The position numbers and the translations under genes were made by a program. A DNA stretch of 36,912 bases from Acidobacteriota bacterium (GTDB taxonomy: Bacteria > Acidobacteriota > Terriglobia > Terriglobales > Acidobacteriaceae): the NCBI GenBank assembly GCA_003225075.1, contig QIAP01000037.1, forward strand, positions 1-36,912, read 5' to 3'. The notes below the pieces were generated by a model that was not told the DNA's origin, did no database searches, and was given only the letters and a program-made list of their open reading frames with translations. Positions 1,466 to 9,524 of this stretch are shown piece by piece (position 1 is the stretch's first letter; each line of letters begins with the position of its first letter).

Positions 1466-1472
1466 GGTGACT

Positions 1473-1910
1473 ATGAAGTGGATTACCCGGAAAGACATCA
1501 AAATTGACCGTGTCGCTTGTCCGTGGCTGATCAAGCGATTCATCGATCCGCAGGCGGCCTTCTTGTTCGTCGAGGAAAAGGATCTACTGGAGAAATCGAA
1601 ACAAGAAGGGGCGATTCCTTTCGATGCGCCGAAGATAGAAGCCATAAAACTCAATCATCGCGGTCCCCGCTGTACCTTCGAGGCAATTATCGAAGACTAC
1701 ACAATCTCCGATCCCGTTCTGCTGCGATTAGCACTGATCGTCCGCGCTGCCGACATCAAGGGGCAGGAGAATGTGGCAGCCGAGGGCATCGGTTTGCGCT
1801 CCATCGCCCAAGGGTTTGCCGCAATGGGTCTGTCGGATGAGGATCGACTCGCGAGGCAGTTCCCTGTCTATGATGCTTTATACGCATACGTTCAAAGACA
1901 GGAAAAGTGA
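1473..1910 (+). CDS. ChrB C-terminal-domain chromate-resistance protein
   Basis: A 145-residue protein matching the Chrome_Resist domain found at the C-terminus of ChrB. Diagnostic segments are KIDRVACPWLIKRFIDP near the N-terminus, IPFDAP in the middle and LNHRGPRCTFEAII, followed by LLRLALIVRAAD. In chromate operons ChrB acts as a chromate-sensing regulator or accessory factor. Stand-alone copies of this domain commonly lie beside transporters. The ATG at 1473 is chosen over the GTG at 1467 because GAGGTGA (1464-1470) sits just upstream as a ribosome-binding site. The stop overlaps the next gene's GTG by four bases (GTGA), so the transporter is probably translationally coupled. The domain assignment is confident; a role specifically in chromate tolerance is inferred from the family. 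Confidence 0.85.
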   Translation: MKWITRKDIKIDRVACPWLIKRFIDPQAAFLFVEEKDLLEKSKQEGAIPFDAPKIEAIKLNHRGPRCTFEAIIEDYTISDPVLLRLALIVRAADIKGQENVAAEGIGLRSIAQGFAAMGLSDEDRLARQFPVYDALYAYVQRQEK

Positions 1911-3148
1911 AGGCGCATCCCCATCGAGATCTCGCCCTGATCAACCTGGCGGGCTTTCTGCGTTCCCTCGGTGTGGGGCTCATGGGCGTAGTGCTGGGGA
2001 TCTACCTCTTTCGTGCCGGGCGATCCTCATTCACGATCGGTCTCGTCATCGCGACCGGCTTGGCCGGCTCAGCCCTGGCAACGGTCATCGTCAGCTTTGC
2101 CGCCGACCGCCTGGGGCGTAAGCAGTCACTCATATTTCTTTCGCTTCTAAGTGGTATCGGCGGTATGGCTTTGGCGCTGTCCCCGGCGCTTGGTGTGCTG
2201 TTGGCGATGGTATTCATCGGCATGCTGAATGGCACGGGGACGGATCGCTCCGCGTCTTTTGCCCTCGACCAGGCGATTGTTCCGGGACTCGCTCCGGACT
2301 CCAAGAGAACGTGGAACCTGGCCTGGTATAACGTCCTGCTCGATGGCGGAGGGTCTGTGGGAGCGTTAGCTGCCGGCCTCCCGCTCTTTCTGCAGCACCG
2401 CCTCTCATTCTCCGCGATCAGTTCCTACAAAGTCGTCTTCTTTGGCTACTCTGGTCTTTGCCTGCTGGTCGCCACCCTGTATGCATTCGTTTCCCCAGCC
2501 ATCGAAGTTAACTACACACCGGCCCCTGCGAAGATGGGCGCCGGAATCACACTAGAAAACAGGAGAATCCTTGCCAAGCTGACGGCTCTATTTTCGCTGG
2601 ATGCTTTTGGCGGAGGCTTCTTGACCGATGCCCTAGTCGCCTATTGGTTCTTCCGTCGCTTTGGAGTTGCCGAACACGACCTTGGCCTTGTTTTCTTTGC
2701 GGTGCACATATTGAATGCCTGTTCGCACCTCGGAGCGGTGTGGCTGGCTCGTCGTATCGGTCTTGTGAACACGATGGTGTTCACTCATCTTCCGTCGAGT
2801 CTGTTTCTCATGGCCGTACCCTTTGCTCCTTCCTTCAAGTGGGCAGTTCTGCTCTTCCTTTGTCGGGAAGCCTTAGTTGAGATGGACGTACCCACGCGCC
2901 AGTCTTACGTCGCGGCGCTCGTAAGTCCGAGTGAGCGCACATATGCCAGTGGAATCACAAATCTCGCACGCAACGTATTCTGGGCTGTCGGGTCAGCGGC
3001 CGCGGGGTTCTTGATGCAGGCCCTTACTTTCTCCGCTCCGTTGTTGATTGGAGGTGGAGCAAAAGTGACTTACGACATCCTTCTGTACAGGTCGTTTCGT
3101 GGGCTAAGACCTCCAGAAGAGATGAAATCCGTACAAACCGTGCGCTGA
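1907..3148 (+). CDS. MFS transporter coupled to the ChrB-like gene
   Basis: A 413-residue polytopic membrane protein with about 12 hydrophobic helices in two halves. The MFS loop 2-3 signature is visible as ADRLGRKQS. The GTG start overlaps the preceding stop by four bases. A transporter next to a ChrB-domain protein suggests export of chromate or another oxyanion, but the substrate cannot be read from sequence. The C-terminal half is clearly paralogous to the minus-strand MFS gene at 32119-33384. Shared stretches include FxLDxFxGGF, GLVNTMVxTHLPS, MDVPTRQSY and ILLYRxFxxxRPPEE. Both belong to one MFS subfamily, so one family may have been duplicated within this genome neighbourhood. Confidence 0.85.
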   Translation: MKAHPHRDLALINLAGFLRSLGVGLMGVVLGIYLFRAGRSSFTIGLVIATGLAGSALATVIVSFAADRLGRKQSLIFLSLLSGIGGMALALSPALGVLLAMVFIGMLNGTGTDRSASFALDQAIVPGLAPDSKRTWNLAWYNVLLDGGGSVGALAAGLPLFLQHRLSFSAISSYKVVFFGYSGLCLLVATLYAFVSPAIEVNYTPAPAKMGAGITLENRRILAKLTALFSLDAFGGGFLTDALVAYWFFRRFGVAEHDLGLVFFAVHILNACSHLGAVWLARRIGLVNTMVFTHLPSSLFLMAVPFAPSFKWAVLLFLCREALVEMDVPTRQSYVAALVSPSERTYASGITNLARNVFWAVGSAAAGFLMQALTFSAPLLIGGGAKVTYDILLYRSFRGLRPPEEMKSVQTVR

Positions 3149-3476
3149 GCGGCCTCGACCACAATCCGAATAGACCAATTTGTCCAAGACCAATTTGTCG
3201 GTTGGCAGAAGTCCTCGGCGGTGCTAGAGTGGCGCTATTCAGCAATGGTGGCAGGACGCGCTATTTACGGCAGCGCGATAATGCTTAGTACTAAATCGGT
3301 AGCCTCCTAACCGTCTAGGAGCAGTCCCTCGGTCGATCTCCGGTGCGATGAACCTTCGCGCTTCCCCGCTGAAATTGTTCATCGTGATGTAAAAACCACG
3401 AAAGCAAGCGCGGGAGCGCACCCATTCCGCTTTCCCGCAGCTGCCTCCGTACAACATCGTGGAAGGAGAAAACAAT
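3149..3476. other. Intergenic region with a 13-bp tandem direct repeat
   Basis: No gene is supported here. Two exact copies of AGACCAATTTGTC lie at 3172-3184 and 3187-3199, a period of 15 bases, shortly after the MFS stop. They could be paired operator half-sites or a chance duplication. The rest is the presumed promoter and leader region of the GMC oxidoreductase gene and ends in a strong GGAAGGAG ribosome-binding site at 3461-3468. Confidence 0.5.
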
Positions 3477-6143
3477 ATGTCCACTCCCCAAAAGGCAGAG
3501 CTCGGCACTTTTACTAAAGACGTTCTTGGACGTTACATCTGCAACGGTCTTGACGAAGCCATCGCCAGCACAAATTCTGCGAACAGCCCGGATGCCCGAC
3601 CCTTCGATGTGATCGTCGTCGGGGGAGGCTCATTCGGCGCAGTTTTCGCCCAGCACTTCTTTTCCCAGGACACAACCCACAGCCATCGCATCCTTGTTCT
3701 TGAGGGAGGTCCGCTCACCATCCCGGAGCACGTGCAGAATCTGCCCGTTTTGGCGGGACTTGGTGTGCCGGGCGCTACCAGCATCCAGGATCTTAGAAAT
3801 CAAGGCCAATTCGGTTTGGATAAACCTAGAGAGGAAGTATGGGGACTTCCGTGGCACTCATCCACCAAATTCCCTGGGCTTGCATATTGTATCGGCGGCA
3901 GGTCTTTGTACTTCGGCGGCTGGTGTCCTCAGCTTCTCGACGAAGAGATGCCGGCAGACCGCTGGCCTCAGGCCGTGATCGATGACCTGGACAACACCTA
4001 CTTCCGCCAAGCCAGCGAGCAAATTGGCACTAACGAGACCAACGACTTCATTTCCGGTCCCCTACATACCACTCTCCGCCAGATGCTCTTTGATGGCATC
4101 CAAGCCGGTATGGTGGCCGACGCCATTCCTCTCAACCAACTTCCGGTGCATCCTCCGGTACAAGCCGACATCGACCAGCTGGAAGCGCCCCTGGCAGTCC
4201 AAAGCCAGACCCGGCCTGGATTCTTCCCTTTCAACAAGTTCAGCTCGGTGCCAGTCCTCATCAAGGCAACCCGAGCGGCTTTTTCGGAAAGTAATGGGAG
4301 TGACTTCAAAAAGCGGCTCATGGTCGTCGCACGCTGCCACGTAATTCAGCTGCTCACCGAGAACGTGATGGTGAACGGGCAGCTCCTGAAACGAGTGCAC
4401 ACCGTGCAGACAGATCAAGGCCCCATCACTGTACCGCAGGGTGCAGTTGTCGTGGTTGCGCTGGGCACCATCGAGAGCACGCGGCTCTCACTGCTCTCCT
4501 TCGGAGATATTCCCAACGCCAATCTCCTGGGCCGCAATCTCATGGCACACCTACGGTCGAATGTCACGATCAGGATTCCGCGCAGTTCGTTGCCTGGACA
4601 GCTTCCGCAGGAACTCATGGCGTCCGCCCTGTTCGTTAAGGGAAGGCACCGGCATCCGGATAACAGCGTCGGGCACTTTCACCTGCAGATCACAGCCGCG
4701 GGACTGGGCAACCTGGGAACCGACTCCGAAGCCGAGCTATTTAAGAAAATTCCGGATATCGACACGTTTGACGCTTTCGGAAATGCCAACGACCAGTCGG
4801 TAGTGATAACCATTCGCGGCATTGGGGAAATGCAGCCCGACAATCCGGCAAACCAGATCCGCTTGGATCCCGAGACAGATGAGTTTGGCCTGCCCCGCAG
4901 CTTCGTTTCCTTGCCCGATCCAACCCAGTCCGCGACACCCCAAAGCCAAAAGGATGTGGCTCTGTGGGAGGCGATGGACAGGGCTTCAGACGAGGTAGCA
5001 AAAGTCTTTGCCAATGGTTCTGATTTCGAGATTTTTGCCGGCAACGGTCCGGTGAAAGTCCCGACCAATAGCGATCTCCGCGCTGTATTTCCTTACACTC
5101 CAGGACGAAGAGACGGAATAGGAACGACTCATCACGAAACCGGCACGTTGCGGATGGGTGTAGATGCGAACAATTCGGTCACCAATTCCGACGCCCGCCT
5201 CCACGGAGTTGCGAACACCTATATTGCCGGTCCCGCGTTATTTCCGATCATGGGATCACCGAATCCAATGCTGACCGGCGTAGCTCTGGCACGCCGTTTG
5301 GTTGACAGACTGGCCCTCGGCGGTCTCATGCCGTCAGCCCAGCCAAGCGTTCCAGATCCTGGATTTGCACCGCTGTTTGCCGGAACAGCCAGTACCTTCA
5401 ATGCTTGGCAGGTTGCAGGACAGGGAAACTTCTCGCTGATCAGCGGTGAAATCGTGGCTGAGCCGGGGAGCGACCTCGGCCTGTTCTACCTGGCGACACG
5501 GTCTTTTGGCGACTTTACCCTGAAACTGGAATTCAAGCTGGGCCGCATCGACGACAACTCAGGCATCTTGATTCGATTTCGCAATCCAAGACTCCCGGTA
5601 CCCGACCGTAATCTTCCTGGGGTCTCCCATCCCTACAACAATCAGGCATTCGTAGCAGTGGATACCGGCTTTGAAGTACAGATTGACGAATTCGCCAGGG
5701 GAAATCCTGACGGACTCGACGAGCACCGCACGGGTGCAATCTATGGAATTCCAATCGGCAGGAATCCCGGTCAACAGGACTATCAGCGTGGCCCTGCCCT
5801 AGTCCCTGGACAATGGAATACTTACGAGATTGAAGTCGGAGACAACACGTACACGGTTCGGCTCAATGGTCAGCAAACAACGAAGTTCACCAATGTTGAT
5901 CTGTTTCGGGGCAAGTCACCTGCCACCGATCCTGACTCCGGTTATATCGGTGTGCAGTCACACACCGGACTTGTAACCTTCCGGAATATCCAAATCATGG
6001 CTCAGGCGCCCGCACGCGCGATGCGCCCAGCAGAAATCAGCCGCGTTGAGGCAATTCACGGCGTCGAAATGCCCGTCGAAGCGGCAGAGGAAGAACCAAT
6101 CGTTGCAGACGATAAAAAGAAGCCTGTAAAGAAGAGTGCGTGA
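3477..6143 (+). CDS. GMC-type FAD oxidoreductase fused to a C-terminal DUF1080 domain
   Basis: An 888-residue two-domain protein. Residues about 45-54 carry the Rossmann FAD-binding glycine motif (VIVVGGGSFG). The GMC C-terminal substrate domain shows THHETGTLRMG with the catalytic His pair at about 552/553, and GSPNPMLTG with the partner Asn near 596. These are the two active-site positions of glucose-methanol-choline oxidoreductases. From about residue 640 to 840 a DUF1080 beta-sandwich follows (NAWQVAGQGNFSL, LKLEFKLG, DDNSGILIRF, YEIEVGDNTYTVRLNG). This is the fold of 3-keto-glycoside hydrolases/lyases. No signal peptide is evident, so cytoplasmic action is likely. The start is the ATG at 3477, placed eight bases after GGAAGGAG. 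A Lys/Glu-rich tail ends the protein. Coupled 3-oxidation of a glycoside and cleavage of the 3-keto product in one chain is an attractive inference but unproven. Confidence 0.88.
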   Translation: MSTPQKAELGTFTKDVLGRYICNGLDEAIASTNSANSPDARPFDVIVVGGGSFGAVFAQHFFSQDTTHSHRILVLEGGPLTIPEHVQNLPVLAGLGVPGATSIQDLRNQGQFGLDKPREEVWGLPWHSSTKFPGLAYCIGGRSLYFGGWCPQLLDEEMPADRWPQAVIDDLDNTYFRQASEQIGTNETNDFISGPLHTTLRQMLFDGIQAGMVADAIPLNQLPVHPPVQADIDQLEAPLAVQSQTRPGFFPFNKFSSVPVLIKATRAAFSESNGSDFKKRLMVVARCHVIQLLTENVMVNGQLLKRVHTVQTDQGPITVPQGAVVVVALGTIESTRLSLLSFGDIPNANLLGRNLMAHLRSNVTIRIPRSSLPGQLPQELMASALFVKGRHRHPDNSVGHFHLQITAAGLGNLGTDSEAELFKKIPDIDTFDAFGNANDQSVVITIRGIGEMQPDNPANQIRLDPETDEFGLPRSFVSLPDPTQSATPQSQKDVALWEAMDRASDEVAKVFANGSDFEIFAGNGPVKVPTNSDLRAVFPYTPGRRDGIGTTHHETGTLRMGVDANNSVTNSDARLHGVANTYIAGPALFPIMGSPNPMLTGVALARRLVDRLALGGLMPSAQPSVPDPGFAPLFAGTASTFNAWQVAGQGNFSLISGEIVAEPGSDLGLFYLATRSFGDFTLKLEFKLGRIDDNSGILIRFRNPRLPVPDRNLPGVSHPYNNQAFVAVDTGFEVQIDEFARGNPDGLDEHRTGAIYGIPIGRNPGQQDYQRGPALVPGQWNTYEIEVGDNTYTVRLNGQQTTKFTNVDLFRGKSPATDPDSGYIGVQSHTGLVTFRNIQIMAQAPARAMRPAEISRVEAIHGVEMPVEAAEEEPIVADDKKKPVKKSA

Positions 6144-6391: not shown

Positions 6392-6421
6392 GAACGCCAC
6401 TGCATTTCGGCAGTGGCGTTC
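6392..6421 (-). terminator. Hairpin terminator after tRNA-fMet
   Basis: A perfect 12-bp stem (6392-6403 with 6410-6421) closes a six-base loop directly after the encoded CCA of the tRNA. On the minus strand it is followed by a short, impure T-rich stretch, so it is a plausible but not classical intrinsic terminator. It could also serve as the RNA 3' end for processing. Confidence 0.65.
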
Positions 6422-6422
6422 A

Positions 6423-6750
6423 TGGTTGCGGGGGGCGGATTTGAACCGCCGACCTTTGGGTTATGCGATCTGACTCACCTTTCGATGAGAGTCGGACTGT
6501 ACCTTCATCCCCGAGGGATGCTCGCCATCCAGTCTCTACGCCTTCCCCCACCATTCCGGGGGCTTGGTTCGGTATTGCCCTATCGCTCGCGCGACGTAGG
6601 TTCCACCGACTTTGACGAGTAATCTTCCGGCACATTGCTGCACCGGACGCCCAGTTTGCAACGCTCAATTGGAATCCCAAGGAACTCTTAGGAATCCTAA
6701 GGAGCGACAGGTTATGAGCCCAACGAGCTACCAGACTGCTCCACCCCGCC
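6423..6750 (-). tRNA. Initiator tRNA-fMet (CAU), interrupted by a group I intron
   Basis: Reading the minus strand, 6750-6717 gives the 5' half (acceptor, D arm, anticodon 5' stem) and 6465-6423 gives the 3' half beginning with the CAT anticodon. Joined, they form a 77-nt tRNA nearly identical to bacterial initiator tRNAs. It has three consecutive G:C pairs in the anticodon stem (GGG/CCC), an A:U pair in the D stem (GAGC/GCTC), a T loop of TTCAAAT, an encoded CCA, and no Watson-Crick pair at position 1:72 (G opposite A). The last feature marks initiators, although C opposite A is usual. The halves are separated by 251 bases with group I intron core motifs, so splicing is required for function. 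Placement between U33 and C34 satisfies the U-before and G-after splice rules. The shared CATAACC sequence makes the exact site formally ambiguous. Confidence 0.95.
6466..6716 (-). ncRNA. Group I intron (251 nt) in the tRNA-fMet anticodon loop
   Basis: Core elements on the minus strand appear in the expected order. There is a Q-like segment GCAATACCGAACC (6578-6566) and a P6-like hairpin CCCCC/GGGGG (6562-6545). An R-like segment GTAGAGACT (6539-6531) supplies the P7 5' strand. A P8 hairpin CATCC-CTCGG-GGATG (6520-6506) precedes an S-like segment AAGGTACAGTCC (6505-6494), whose AGTC pairs with the GACT of R to complete P7. A six-pair hairpin CTTAGG-ATT-CCTAAG lies near the 5' end (6701-6687). 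The intron ends in G, as group I introns do. I could not draw a convincing P1 with the 5' exon, so the guide sequence remains unassigned. There is no homing-endonuclease gene; the open frames across it have no recognisable protein. It resembles the small self-splicing introns of cyanobacterial and proteobacterial tRNA genes. Confidence 0.9.
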
Positions 6751-7576: not shown

Positions 7577-7733
7577 CGGAAAACCGGCAATTCTGATTGC
7601 TTAAATTAGCCCATAACATTACATTTCTTGCAGCAACAGAACCAGTAAACCGCCAACCTCGTATCAGGATGACCTGCCGGACGCGCAAGTCGGGTACCTC
7701 AAAAACATTCATTCTCGAAGATTGGGTCCTGGG

Positions 7734-9524
7734 ATGAGTCTCAATACTCTCAACGATATTTTCTTTGCCGTGGTCGAACGTCAGCAAGACTCCGTGATGA
7801 TGTATCGCCAAGACGGTCAATGGGTCTCCATCAGTTCGCAGGAGTTCTTTCGTCGTGTCATCGGGCTCGCACGCGCGTTGGAAAGCTGGGGCATCTCCAA
7901 AGGCCACCGGATCGCCATTCTCAGCGAAAACCGTCCGGAATGGGCGCTCACCGATTTCGCCTGCCTGCTGCTCGGGGCCGTGACTGTACCAATCTATTCC
8001 ACTCTGACTGGTGAACAGTCCGCCGAAATTCTTCGAGACTCAGGCGCTCGGATCATCGCCGTCTCCACCGAGCAACAACTGCAAAAGCTTCTCTCGATTC
8101 GCGATCGCACAGCAGTCGAGAAGATATTAGTCATGGATGATCTCAATACCGAGGGCGCCATCCCGATCCATAAATTGATGAAGGCAGGCCCGGTGGAACG
8201 CGATCCGAAGTTCGAGACCCGTGCCCGGTCGGTCAAGCCAGAAGATTTGGCCACCATCATCTACACCTCAGGCACCACCGGAACGCCTAAGGGCGTCATG
8301 CTTACTCATGGAAACATTGCCTCAAATATCTCGTACTCTTTGCAGGGTTTTGACCTTCGCCCCGGGGAAATCAGTATTTCATTTCTTCCTTTGTCGCATG
8401 TAACCGCCCGACACGCGGATTTGGCCCTTCTCTACCATGGTGTGATACTTGCTTACTGCCCCTTTATCGAACAACTCTCTCAAGCCCTGCTCGAAGTAAA
8501 GCCCACGGTCTTCCTCGGCGTCCCACGAGTTTACGAAAAAATCTATGCCCAGGTTGAACATAAGGCTAAACGATTTCCCACGCGCGCGCTCTATCGCTGG
8601 GCCCTCCACGTCGGACGCGCCCACAAATCCGAAACTGTCGCTGGCAAGACTCCCCATTCCCTCAGTTGGAAACTGGCCGCCCGGCTCGTTTTTTCACAAG
8701 TGCGCGCCGGTCTTGGTGGGCGTGTAAGGATATTTATTTCCGGGGGAGCTCCGCTGGGCCGGGAACTCGCCGAGTGGTTTGCGACCATCGGCATTCGCAT
8801 TCATGAAGGATATGGTCTCACCGAAACCTCACCCGTAATCGCGGTCAACACTCCTCTCGCCCACAAGCTTGGTACGGTGGGAGAGATTCTGCCCAATATC
8901 GAAGTCCGCATTGCCGATGATGGAGAAATCCTCGTCCGTGGTCCCTCGGTTTTCCAGGGCTATTGGAACCGCCCGGAAGAGACTACGGGCGCATTTGTAG
9001 ACGGCTGGTTTAAAACGGGTGATATCGGAACGATTGACCGCGACGGATTCCTCTCCATCACCGATCGAAAGAAAGACTTGATCAAGACCTCGGGGGGGAA
9101 GTTCATCGCTCCGCAACCCATCGAGAATTCGCTGAAACACAACCCGCTGGTGGGCACTCCTGTCATAATTGGTGACAAACGCAAATTCCCCGCCTTGATT
9201 ATTTCGCCTTCTTTCCCTGCTCTGGAGCAATGGGCGCGTGCCCACGGTATCGCTTTCTCTTCCAGCCAAGACCTCATCCGCAACAAGAAAGTGCAGGAGC
9301 TTTATGACGGCATTGTGGCAGAGGTCAATCAAAACTTGGCCCGCTTTGAAAAATTGAAGAAAGTTCTACTAGTACCAGATGAATTCTCTGCAGAAAGTGG
9401 GGACTTGACTCCTACCATGAAGCTTCGCCGCCGCATGGTGGAGGAGCGCTACCACGATCTCATAGAAGAAATGTACAAAGAGGCGGAAAACACCCCGTCG
9501 CCTGAAGCTGTCGACCGAAGTTGA
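7734..9524 (+). CDS. Long-chain fatty-acid--CoA ligase (AMP-forming)
   Basis: A 596-residue member of the ANL adenylating superfamily that activates fatty acids to acyl-AMP and then acyl-CoA in the cytoplasm. The P-loop-like A3 motif [18 protein letters not shown] lies near residues 176-193. The A5 motif GYGLTETSP is near 363, and the hinge and A8 region GWFKTGDIG then [13 protein letters not shown] follow at about 424-460. That DRKKDLIK form is characteristic of FadD15-like long-chain ligases rather than acetyl-CoA synthetases. The ATG at 7734 is preferred to the upstream TTG at 7722 because family homology begins with SLNTLNDIF. It is transcribed divergently from the peroxiredoxin and lies 40 bases upstream of thiG, possibly sharing its transcript. 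Confidence 0.92.

Follow-up and report, generated by a model that had tools for sequence, protein, structure and literature searches.

A group I intron that opens with an integrase core sequence splits an acidobacterial initiator tRNA gene and may be exchanged by integrative elements

The analyzed stretch of DNA, referred to as the window, comprises 36,912 nt of a draft genome from the family Acidobacteriaceae. At positions 6423–6750 on its reverse strand it contains an initiator tRNA-fMet(CAU) gene that is split by a group I intron between U33 and C34. The 34-nt 5′ exon (6717–6750, reverse strand; tRNA nucleotides 1–33) ends with GUUGGGCU, the 251-nt intron (6466–6716, reverse strand) starts with CATAACC and ends with GATCG, and the 43-nt 3′ exon (6423–6465, reverse strand; nucleotides 34–77) has an encoded CCA. 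Run without its intron option, ARAGORN found no tRNA in the unjoined window, and from the joined exons it predicted a 77-nt tRNA-Met(cat). Initiator tRNAs are marked by a 1:72 mismatch, a GGG/CCC anticodon stem and A11-U24, and all of these were read off the ARAGORN drawing of the joined molecule. The 77-nt cloverleaf with CAU anticodon, GGG/CCC stem and 1:72 mismatch is that of a bacterial initiator tRNA. The initial annotation, which had proposed two halves joining to a 77-nt initiator tRNA, was thus correct, with coordinates exact to the base.

The motif CATAACC occurs twice, as the opening 7 nt of the intron (6710–6716, reverse strand) and as the opening 7 nt of the 3′ exon from the anticodon CAU onward (6459–6465, reverse strand). 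Because of this repeat at both intron ends, several cut points are compatible with the sequence, and when introns are permitted ARAGORN reports i(38,251), which would place the cut within or after the anticodon. Group I splicing requires a 5′ exon that ends in U and an intron that ends in G. Since U33^C34 is the sole repeat-compatible cut that provides both, it is preferred and the ARAGORN position was excluded; the placement of the intron directly 5′ of the anticodon, as initially annotated, stands accordingly. The relatives described below are no independent test of the cut, because the search pattern used to find them presupposed it.

The Rfam covariance search bore out the further proposal that the interruption is a compact group I ribozyme. 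RF00028, the sole Rfam match at the gathering score within the window, was found at 6682–6473 on the reverse strand with 52.5 bits (gathering score 50, E-value 1e-10) and spans model positions 1–253, which represent the whole core. P7 is formed by GACU (6534–6531) and AGUC (6498–6495) on the reverse strand and encloses P8, formed by CAUCC (6520–6516) and GGAUG (6510–6506). Across 14 aligned relatives, one P8 pair reads CG in 7/14 and UA in 6/14 rows. Overall, 3 of the 68 predicted pairs are changed on both sides, with P8 as the clearest case, and most pairs are invariant. In one alignment the window row covers 6465–6715 and is one base off, which affects the end columns only. A proposed internal guide sequence, GGC (6649–6651, reverse strand), was deduced from the window and from the conserved GGCGTCC of the alignment, and would pair with exon nucleotides G31-C32-U33 with a U.G at the splice site. 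The precursor folds more stably than 100 shuffled sequences (z = −2.9), which lends weak support to a structured precursor, as this unconstrained fold is not group I throughout. The longest sense open frame of the intron has 83 codons and none of the 15 clade introns contains a sense frame above 84 codons, so that none is of endonuclease size; nor does the 251-nt intron contain a transposase of the kind found in IStrons. The intron should splice itself out of the tRNA-fMet precursor.

The window genome (4.79 Mb, 259 contigs, 97.6% complete) contains a single tRNA-fMet 5′ half, which is the one in the window. A search of the genome for tRNAs gave 43 matches, with 150 of 167 candidates scored, and the further tRNAs with a CAU anticodon comprise one elongator tRNA-Met and one read as tRNA-Ile2. 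The supposition that this is the organism's only tRNA-fMet gene therefore holds for the draft genome with its single 5′ half, and is qualified by the chance of a second gene in an assembly gap. The extreme form of this caveat, a dead gene in the window and an intact tRNA-fMet gene in a gap, appears very unlikely: the fragmentation and completeness of the assembly and the share of tRNA candidates scored leave some room for it, but the joined exons fold as a complete tRNA, the intron exceeds the Rfam cut-off, no other 5′ half exists in the genome and the locus is like the native loci of relatives.

RF00028 has three matches in the window genome. Those on contigs C219 and C214 are introns followed by the whole 3′ half and then by a hairpin, and their 5′ side is reduced to TTGGGCTCATAACC; about 100 bp before TTGGGCTCATAACC are common to both. 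Contig C231 holds a fourth fragment, a 3′ half without intron that is preceded by another kind of flank. The three introns of the window genome are 87–92% identical to each other (differences of 8–13%). The C219 intron shares 98% identity with an intron of another genus (G207:C396) and only 90% and 87% with the other two of its own genome. The corresponding hairpin in the window, GAACGCCACTGC..GCAGTGGCGTTC (6392–6421, reverse strand), is terminator-like and marks the intron-bearing module. The flank beyond it is also common to another intron-bearing copy, to about the segment 6341–6391 (reverse strand).

An AMP-binding enzyme gene (7722–9524, forward strand) lies approximately 1–2.8 kb upstream of the tRNA. 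It occurs on the same side of tRNA-fMet in four other genomes (G059, G111, G169 and G273) and marks the native locus, as native loci of intron-bearing and intronless genomes alike have this upstream gene in common. On the other side, a convergent gene with GMC oxidoreductase C-terminal and 3-keto-disaccharide hydrolase domains (3459–6143, forward strand) may be either cargo of an element or host flank. Genes for a ChrB C-terminal domain protein and an MFS transporter (1467–3148, forward strand) follow about 3–5 kb beyond the tRNA 3′ end. They may be island cargo or host flank; host flank is suggested for the chromate/MFS block (0.7–3.8 kb in the window) by its recurrence near a contig start in G014 and, next to tRNA-fMet, at the end of a G059 contig. 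The downstream part of the window showed no far end of an element, which counts against the exchange model proposed below. In G273, an Acido-Lenti-1 RNA (RF01687; L305, 2038–2083, reverse strand) was detected within a few kb of the native tRNA-fMet gene.

A pattern of the intron-terminal G and the 3′ exon retrieved at least 114 stretches from the named genome collection. Outside the Acidobacteria, at least 97 introns at the same site had a 5′ half and a length of 150–1000 nt; 12 further stretches without a good 5′ half, among the matches listed, were left out of this number. Among the matches listed, five were acidobacterial, one with and four without a 5′ half. The 77 non-acidobacterial introns of up to 400 nt among the matches listed were assigned by the tree tool to Cyanobacteriota (34), Nitrospirota (10), Omnitrophota (10), Rhodothermota (7) and Chloroflexota (6), the rest belonging to smaller groups or none. 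In addition, 20 of the 97 exceed 400 nt, and by eye 18 of these 20 contain a frame that looks like I-Ssp6803I, again among the matches listed; the one such frame that was searched matched PDB 2ost (4.3e-61). A novelty of tRNA-fMet introns outside cyanobacteria is thus excluded, and the novelty for the lineage that had been suggested for the window is weakened by these at least 97 introns and by 36 genomes for which passages of PMC8450103 state that the tRNA-fMet or tRNA-Ile2 gene was missed owing to group I introns. Cyanobacterial tRNA-fMet introns have long been published (Biniszkiewicz 1994, Paquin 1997, as cited in the same passages of PMC8450103), and cyanobacterial tRNAs are treated in sections of PMC5733544. 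The acidobacterial introns resemble the cyanobacterial ones in host gene, anticodon-loop location and the G end before the same 3′ exon, the latter being required by the pattern. They differ in starting with CATAACC, in having no frame of endonuclease size and in occurring also as displaced copies beside integrase-type arms.

In a phylogeny of the intron core, the acidobacterial introns form one clade, whose closest relatives among the matches listed are introns from Omnitrophota (support 95/94). This affinity is tentative because of the long branch of 1.23 and a long-branch warning. Within the clade, the window and C219 introns pair (90/89) and G207:C396 comes next, which conflicts with the full-length identities. 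A clade-specific pattern matched 12 of 398 genomes of the window's family, with 20 copies in 4 of 79 genera, and an intronless tRNA-fMet gene was matched in 155 of 200 family genomes. RF00028 was found overall in 16 of 150 family genomes. At 11 of these family loci (L060, L061, L063, L064, L065, L067, L068 and L070–L073) the intron-containing gene was read as being of the tRNA-Leu(UAA) type, and additional RF00028 matches lie in G025 (L059, 649-bp span), G141 (L066) and G086 (L069).

Together with C32-T33 of the 5′ exon (6718–6717), the CATAACC at the intron start rebuilds CTCATAACC. As CATAACC also opens the 3′ exon, the border between 5′ exon and intron reads CTCATAACC just like the intact gene, and CTCATAACC is the anticodon-loop core where integrative elements enter tRNA-fMet in this lineage. 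Many tyrosine recombinases are known to use the 7-bp anticodon loop as their overlap region (PMC8371274). The 19 intron-bearing copies start with CATAACC (13), CATAAACC (1) or CTGCACC (1), and the remaining four are 5′-truncated and lack the intron start. CATAACC thus opens 13 of the 15 complete copies of the clade and three of the four native ones. The native genes were found without using this motif, whereas displaced intron-bearing left ends were located by CATAACC or CATAAACC, so that its presence there is by construction. Among the matches listed, none of the 97 non-acidobacterial introns starts with CATAACC. The exceptional native start, CTGCACC in G273, counts against a model built on the core repeat.

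These observations have to be weighed against a simpler history, in which an ordinary tRNA-fMet group I intron spreads by homing or reverse splicing and re-invades the gene after displacement by an integrase, instead of being carried by elements. CATAACC would then have arisen by duplication of the target site, represent the direct repeat that is usual at intron borders, or have a role in splicing. Direct repeats at the borders of each of 213 examined introns are described in passages of PMC11782384, so that a 7-bp repeat alone is unremarkable. Homing is also suggested by the I-Ssp6803I-like frames in same-site introns of other phyla and by the pairing of the window and C219 introns in the core tree. 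Furthermore, the intron-bearing native genes of G111, G150 and G273 reside in genomes without arm A, the commonest flank of displaced copies (see below), and G111 and G150 have the core and no intron-bearing fragment. On the other hand, the absence of frames above 84 codons from the 15 introns of the clade, the absence of the repeat from the 97 other introns among the matches listed, and the divergence of 8–13% between introns of one genome, one of which is 98% identical to that of another genus, speak against homing. Overall, we consider re-invasion unlikely, though well above the other alternatives discussed here.

Copies of the 3′ half were tabulated in 15 genomes, selected for containing introns of the clade or for their closeness to genomes that do; G169, G207, G342 and G251 were taken to be identical to G151–G154, as contig numbers and positions agree. 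The table contains 58 copies, which are not phylogenetically independent: 13 are native, two of them with masked bases, and 45 have no 5′ half, 41 of these with a readable left junction. The CT before the core is kept in all 41, and the search patterns included CATAACC and not CT. The successive bases beyond CT agree with the tRNA in 25, 22, 32, 31, 23 and 11 of 41 copies. Displacement of 3′ halves at a single core in a tRNA anticodon loop is what characterizes the attachment site of a tyrosine integrase, with the reservation that CATAACC was part of the patterns. Eleven of the 41 displaced halves bear the intron and are joined at the intron's own copy of the core; judged from their sequence, these junctions probably record a crossover at the intron's CATAACC. 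RF00028 reached the gathering score in 11 of 12 clade loci tested, namely in all four native genes (51.8–57.3 bits) and in 7 of 8 displaced copies (50.3–54.6 bits), the exception being L223, which is below the cut-off; most displaced copies are therefore undecayed. Five genomes (G197, G207, G292, G318 and G342) combine an intronless native gene with intron-bearing fragments.

The left flanks of the displaced halves fall into seven arm types and nine single arms. Arm A is the most frequent, with 16 copies. It spans about 98 bp, is sharply delimited on the left and contains CTGTCC twice as well as the inverted CTTACAAG/CTTGTAAG, a composition suggestive of integrase arm sites. It precedes intron-bearing and intronless halves eight times each. 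Arm B was found before one intron-bearing (L302) and three intronless halves (L235, L333 and L318), and arm G before two intron-bearing halves with identical introns and no intronless ones. A BLAST search that used no core pattern revealed seven more arm-A copies; six of these have CTCATAACC, three of the six run into the intron, and the seventh (G318:C153) has CTCATACCC. Copies whose 3′ half fails the pattern are absent from the table (two on G330:C146, G292:C449, G207:C136, G197:C28:18577, G318:C26:12594, G318:C153, G292:C326, G330:C95 and G251:C138). Retrotransposition as an origin of five 5′-truncated copies (L252, L257, L258, L262 and L263) was dropped, because a search pattern placed at the intron 3′ end favours such copies; a wider DNA search showed that 3′-truncated copies exist too (G207:C136 and G197:C28). 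In G207, two native tRNA-fMet genes (L243 on C150, L244 on C225) have like 5′ flanks and different downstream DNA, and perhaps represent two populations in one assembly.

The displaced copies could in principle be segmental duplications or assembly chimeras with no tie to integrases, given that nearly all genomes are many-contig drafts, several of them MAGs, and that about ten further copies are cut elsewhere, five each on the 5′ and 3′ sides. Such events would hardly produce the same left junction in 41 of 41 copies behind seven arm types and nine single arms in several assemblies, nor place integrase genes next to 14 of 30 intronless displaced halves, and we regard this origin as exceedingly improbable.

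Integrase genes were identified by means of a profile derived from five integrases encoded at these loci, two of which are confirmed by Pfam. Besides the 14 of 30 intronless displaced halves, 8 of 9 native genes without intron had a match on their downstream side. In a family-wide sample of native genes, 17 of 30 had a match, and tRNA-fMet is therefore an integration hot spot in the family. Beside the 19 intron-bearing copies, including the four native ones, no integrase was found within 4.5 kb, the available downstream DNA being 0.3–18 kb. An element carrying the intron would consequently need an integrase from elsewhere, and the lack of matches adjoining intron-bearing modules speaks for homing.

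The terminator and the cargo point the other way. Hairpin ACGCCACTGC follows 16 of the 19 intron-bearing copies and 1 of the 39 intronless ones in the 58-row table, an association that counts against homing; G150 has a variant of it, and two arm-G copies are without hairpin. It is absent from all 28 other native genes with a readable flank (30 sampled, two at a contig edge; G197:C53 counts in both this sample and the table), so that an ancestral host sequence is not favoured as its source. On four contigs (G330:C146, G169:C21, G197:C72 and G197:C28), an arm-A right end is located 3.7 to 11.2 kb from an intron-bearing left end, with cargo between the two, again at odds with homing; three of these left ends are 5′-truncated, that of G169 has no hairpin, and no integrase lies between the ends on any of the four. 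Among the cargo genes are those for a cation-efflux protein, a rhodanese-domain disulfide oxidoreductase, an RND pump, a P-type ATPase and FeoB. In G330 and G169, which belong to two genera, a near-identical disulfide-oxidoreductase/rhodanese gene directly adjoins arm A on its left (L298, 5405–7177, forward strand; L301, 10271–12043, reverse strand). A fifth contig, G251:C244, combines an arm-A right end with an intronless left end that has an integrase match in two frames. The module was found neither in phage or plasmid records nor, by the exact pattern, in viral contigs, a point against the exchange model.

The split gene, the intron with its core repeat, the copies displaced at this core and the common terminator module are present in the DNA. 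It is probable, in our assessment, that integrases exchange intron-bearing and intronless 3′ modules of this gene at a core that includes the intron's repeat. Tyrosine integrases of many integrative elements would recombine with tRNA-fMet at CTCATAACC, and, as we infer, also at the intron's copy of it. An element that enters at the border of 5′ exon and intron would replace everything from the anticodon onward. If its own 3′ half is intronless, the intron, the old 3′ half and the terminator would be pushed to the element's far end. Arrival of an intron-bearing module would install the intron. The window would then represent a native gene in the intron-bearing state, and the displaced introns would be a fossil record of ejection. 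That the intron travels in attP, on elements seemingly without an adjacent integrase, rather than re-invading, is about evenly balanced. The full scenario of an endonuclease-free intron that moves within attachment sites, uses the integrase core as its own 5′ end, and is ferried, installed and ejected by elements falls just short of an even chance.

Parts of this scheme have parallels. For an archaeal tRNA-Thr, passages of Sugahara 2012 (PMC3293823) propose that a mobile element brought about an exchange between an attP with an intron and an attB without one. That intron lies at 24/25 and was seen in one population, whereas here a bacterial ribozyme intron holds the crossover core and many displaced copies occur in several genera. 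Islander tRNA islands with a crossover in the anticodon loop, as described in portions of PMC4383910 and, for the 7-bp overlap region, of PMC8371274, likewise have a displaced 3′ fragment, tandem arrays and an integrase next to the restored tRNA, a feature seen here at 8 of 9 intronless and 0 of 4 intron-bearing native genes; here, in contrast, the fragments may hold a group I intron, and the intron-bearing modules are without a neighbouring integrase. IStrons also tie a group I ribozyme to DNA mobility machinery (parts of PMC4227781), but 251 nt are too small for a transposase, and mobility would here proceed via site-specific recombination at a host core. Among the matches listed in a search of titles and the beginnings of abstracts of mostly open literature, no paper linked bacterial tRNA group I introns to integrase sites, and neither "integrase" nor "Acidobacteri-" appears in the main text of the bacterial group I intron review PMC3984707. 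The new aspects are the CATAACC at the intron start as an integrase core, the displaced fragments of intron plus 3′ half and the link to integrative elements.

Integrases most likely exchange intron-bearing and intronless 3′ modules in this family, and mobile elements may thereby swap an interruption in and out of an essential tRNA gene. Passages of PMC3293823 suggest that a tRNA gene may be protected from integration by an intron within its attachment site; here the intron appears to do the opposite, as it rebuilds the attachment site. If this holds true, bacteria could gain and lose introns through site-specific integrases, a process whose traces can be counted, a single integration would switch the dependence of an essential gene on a ribozyme, and a group I intron would gain a means to persist and spread without an endonuclease.
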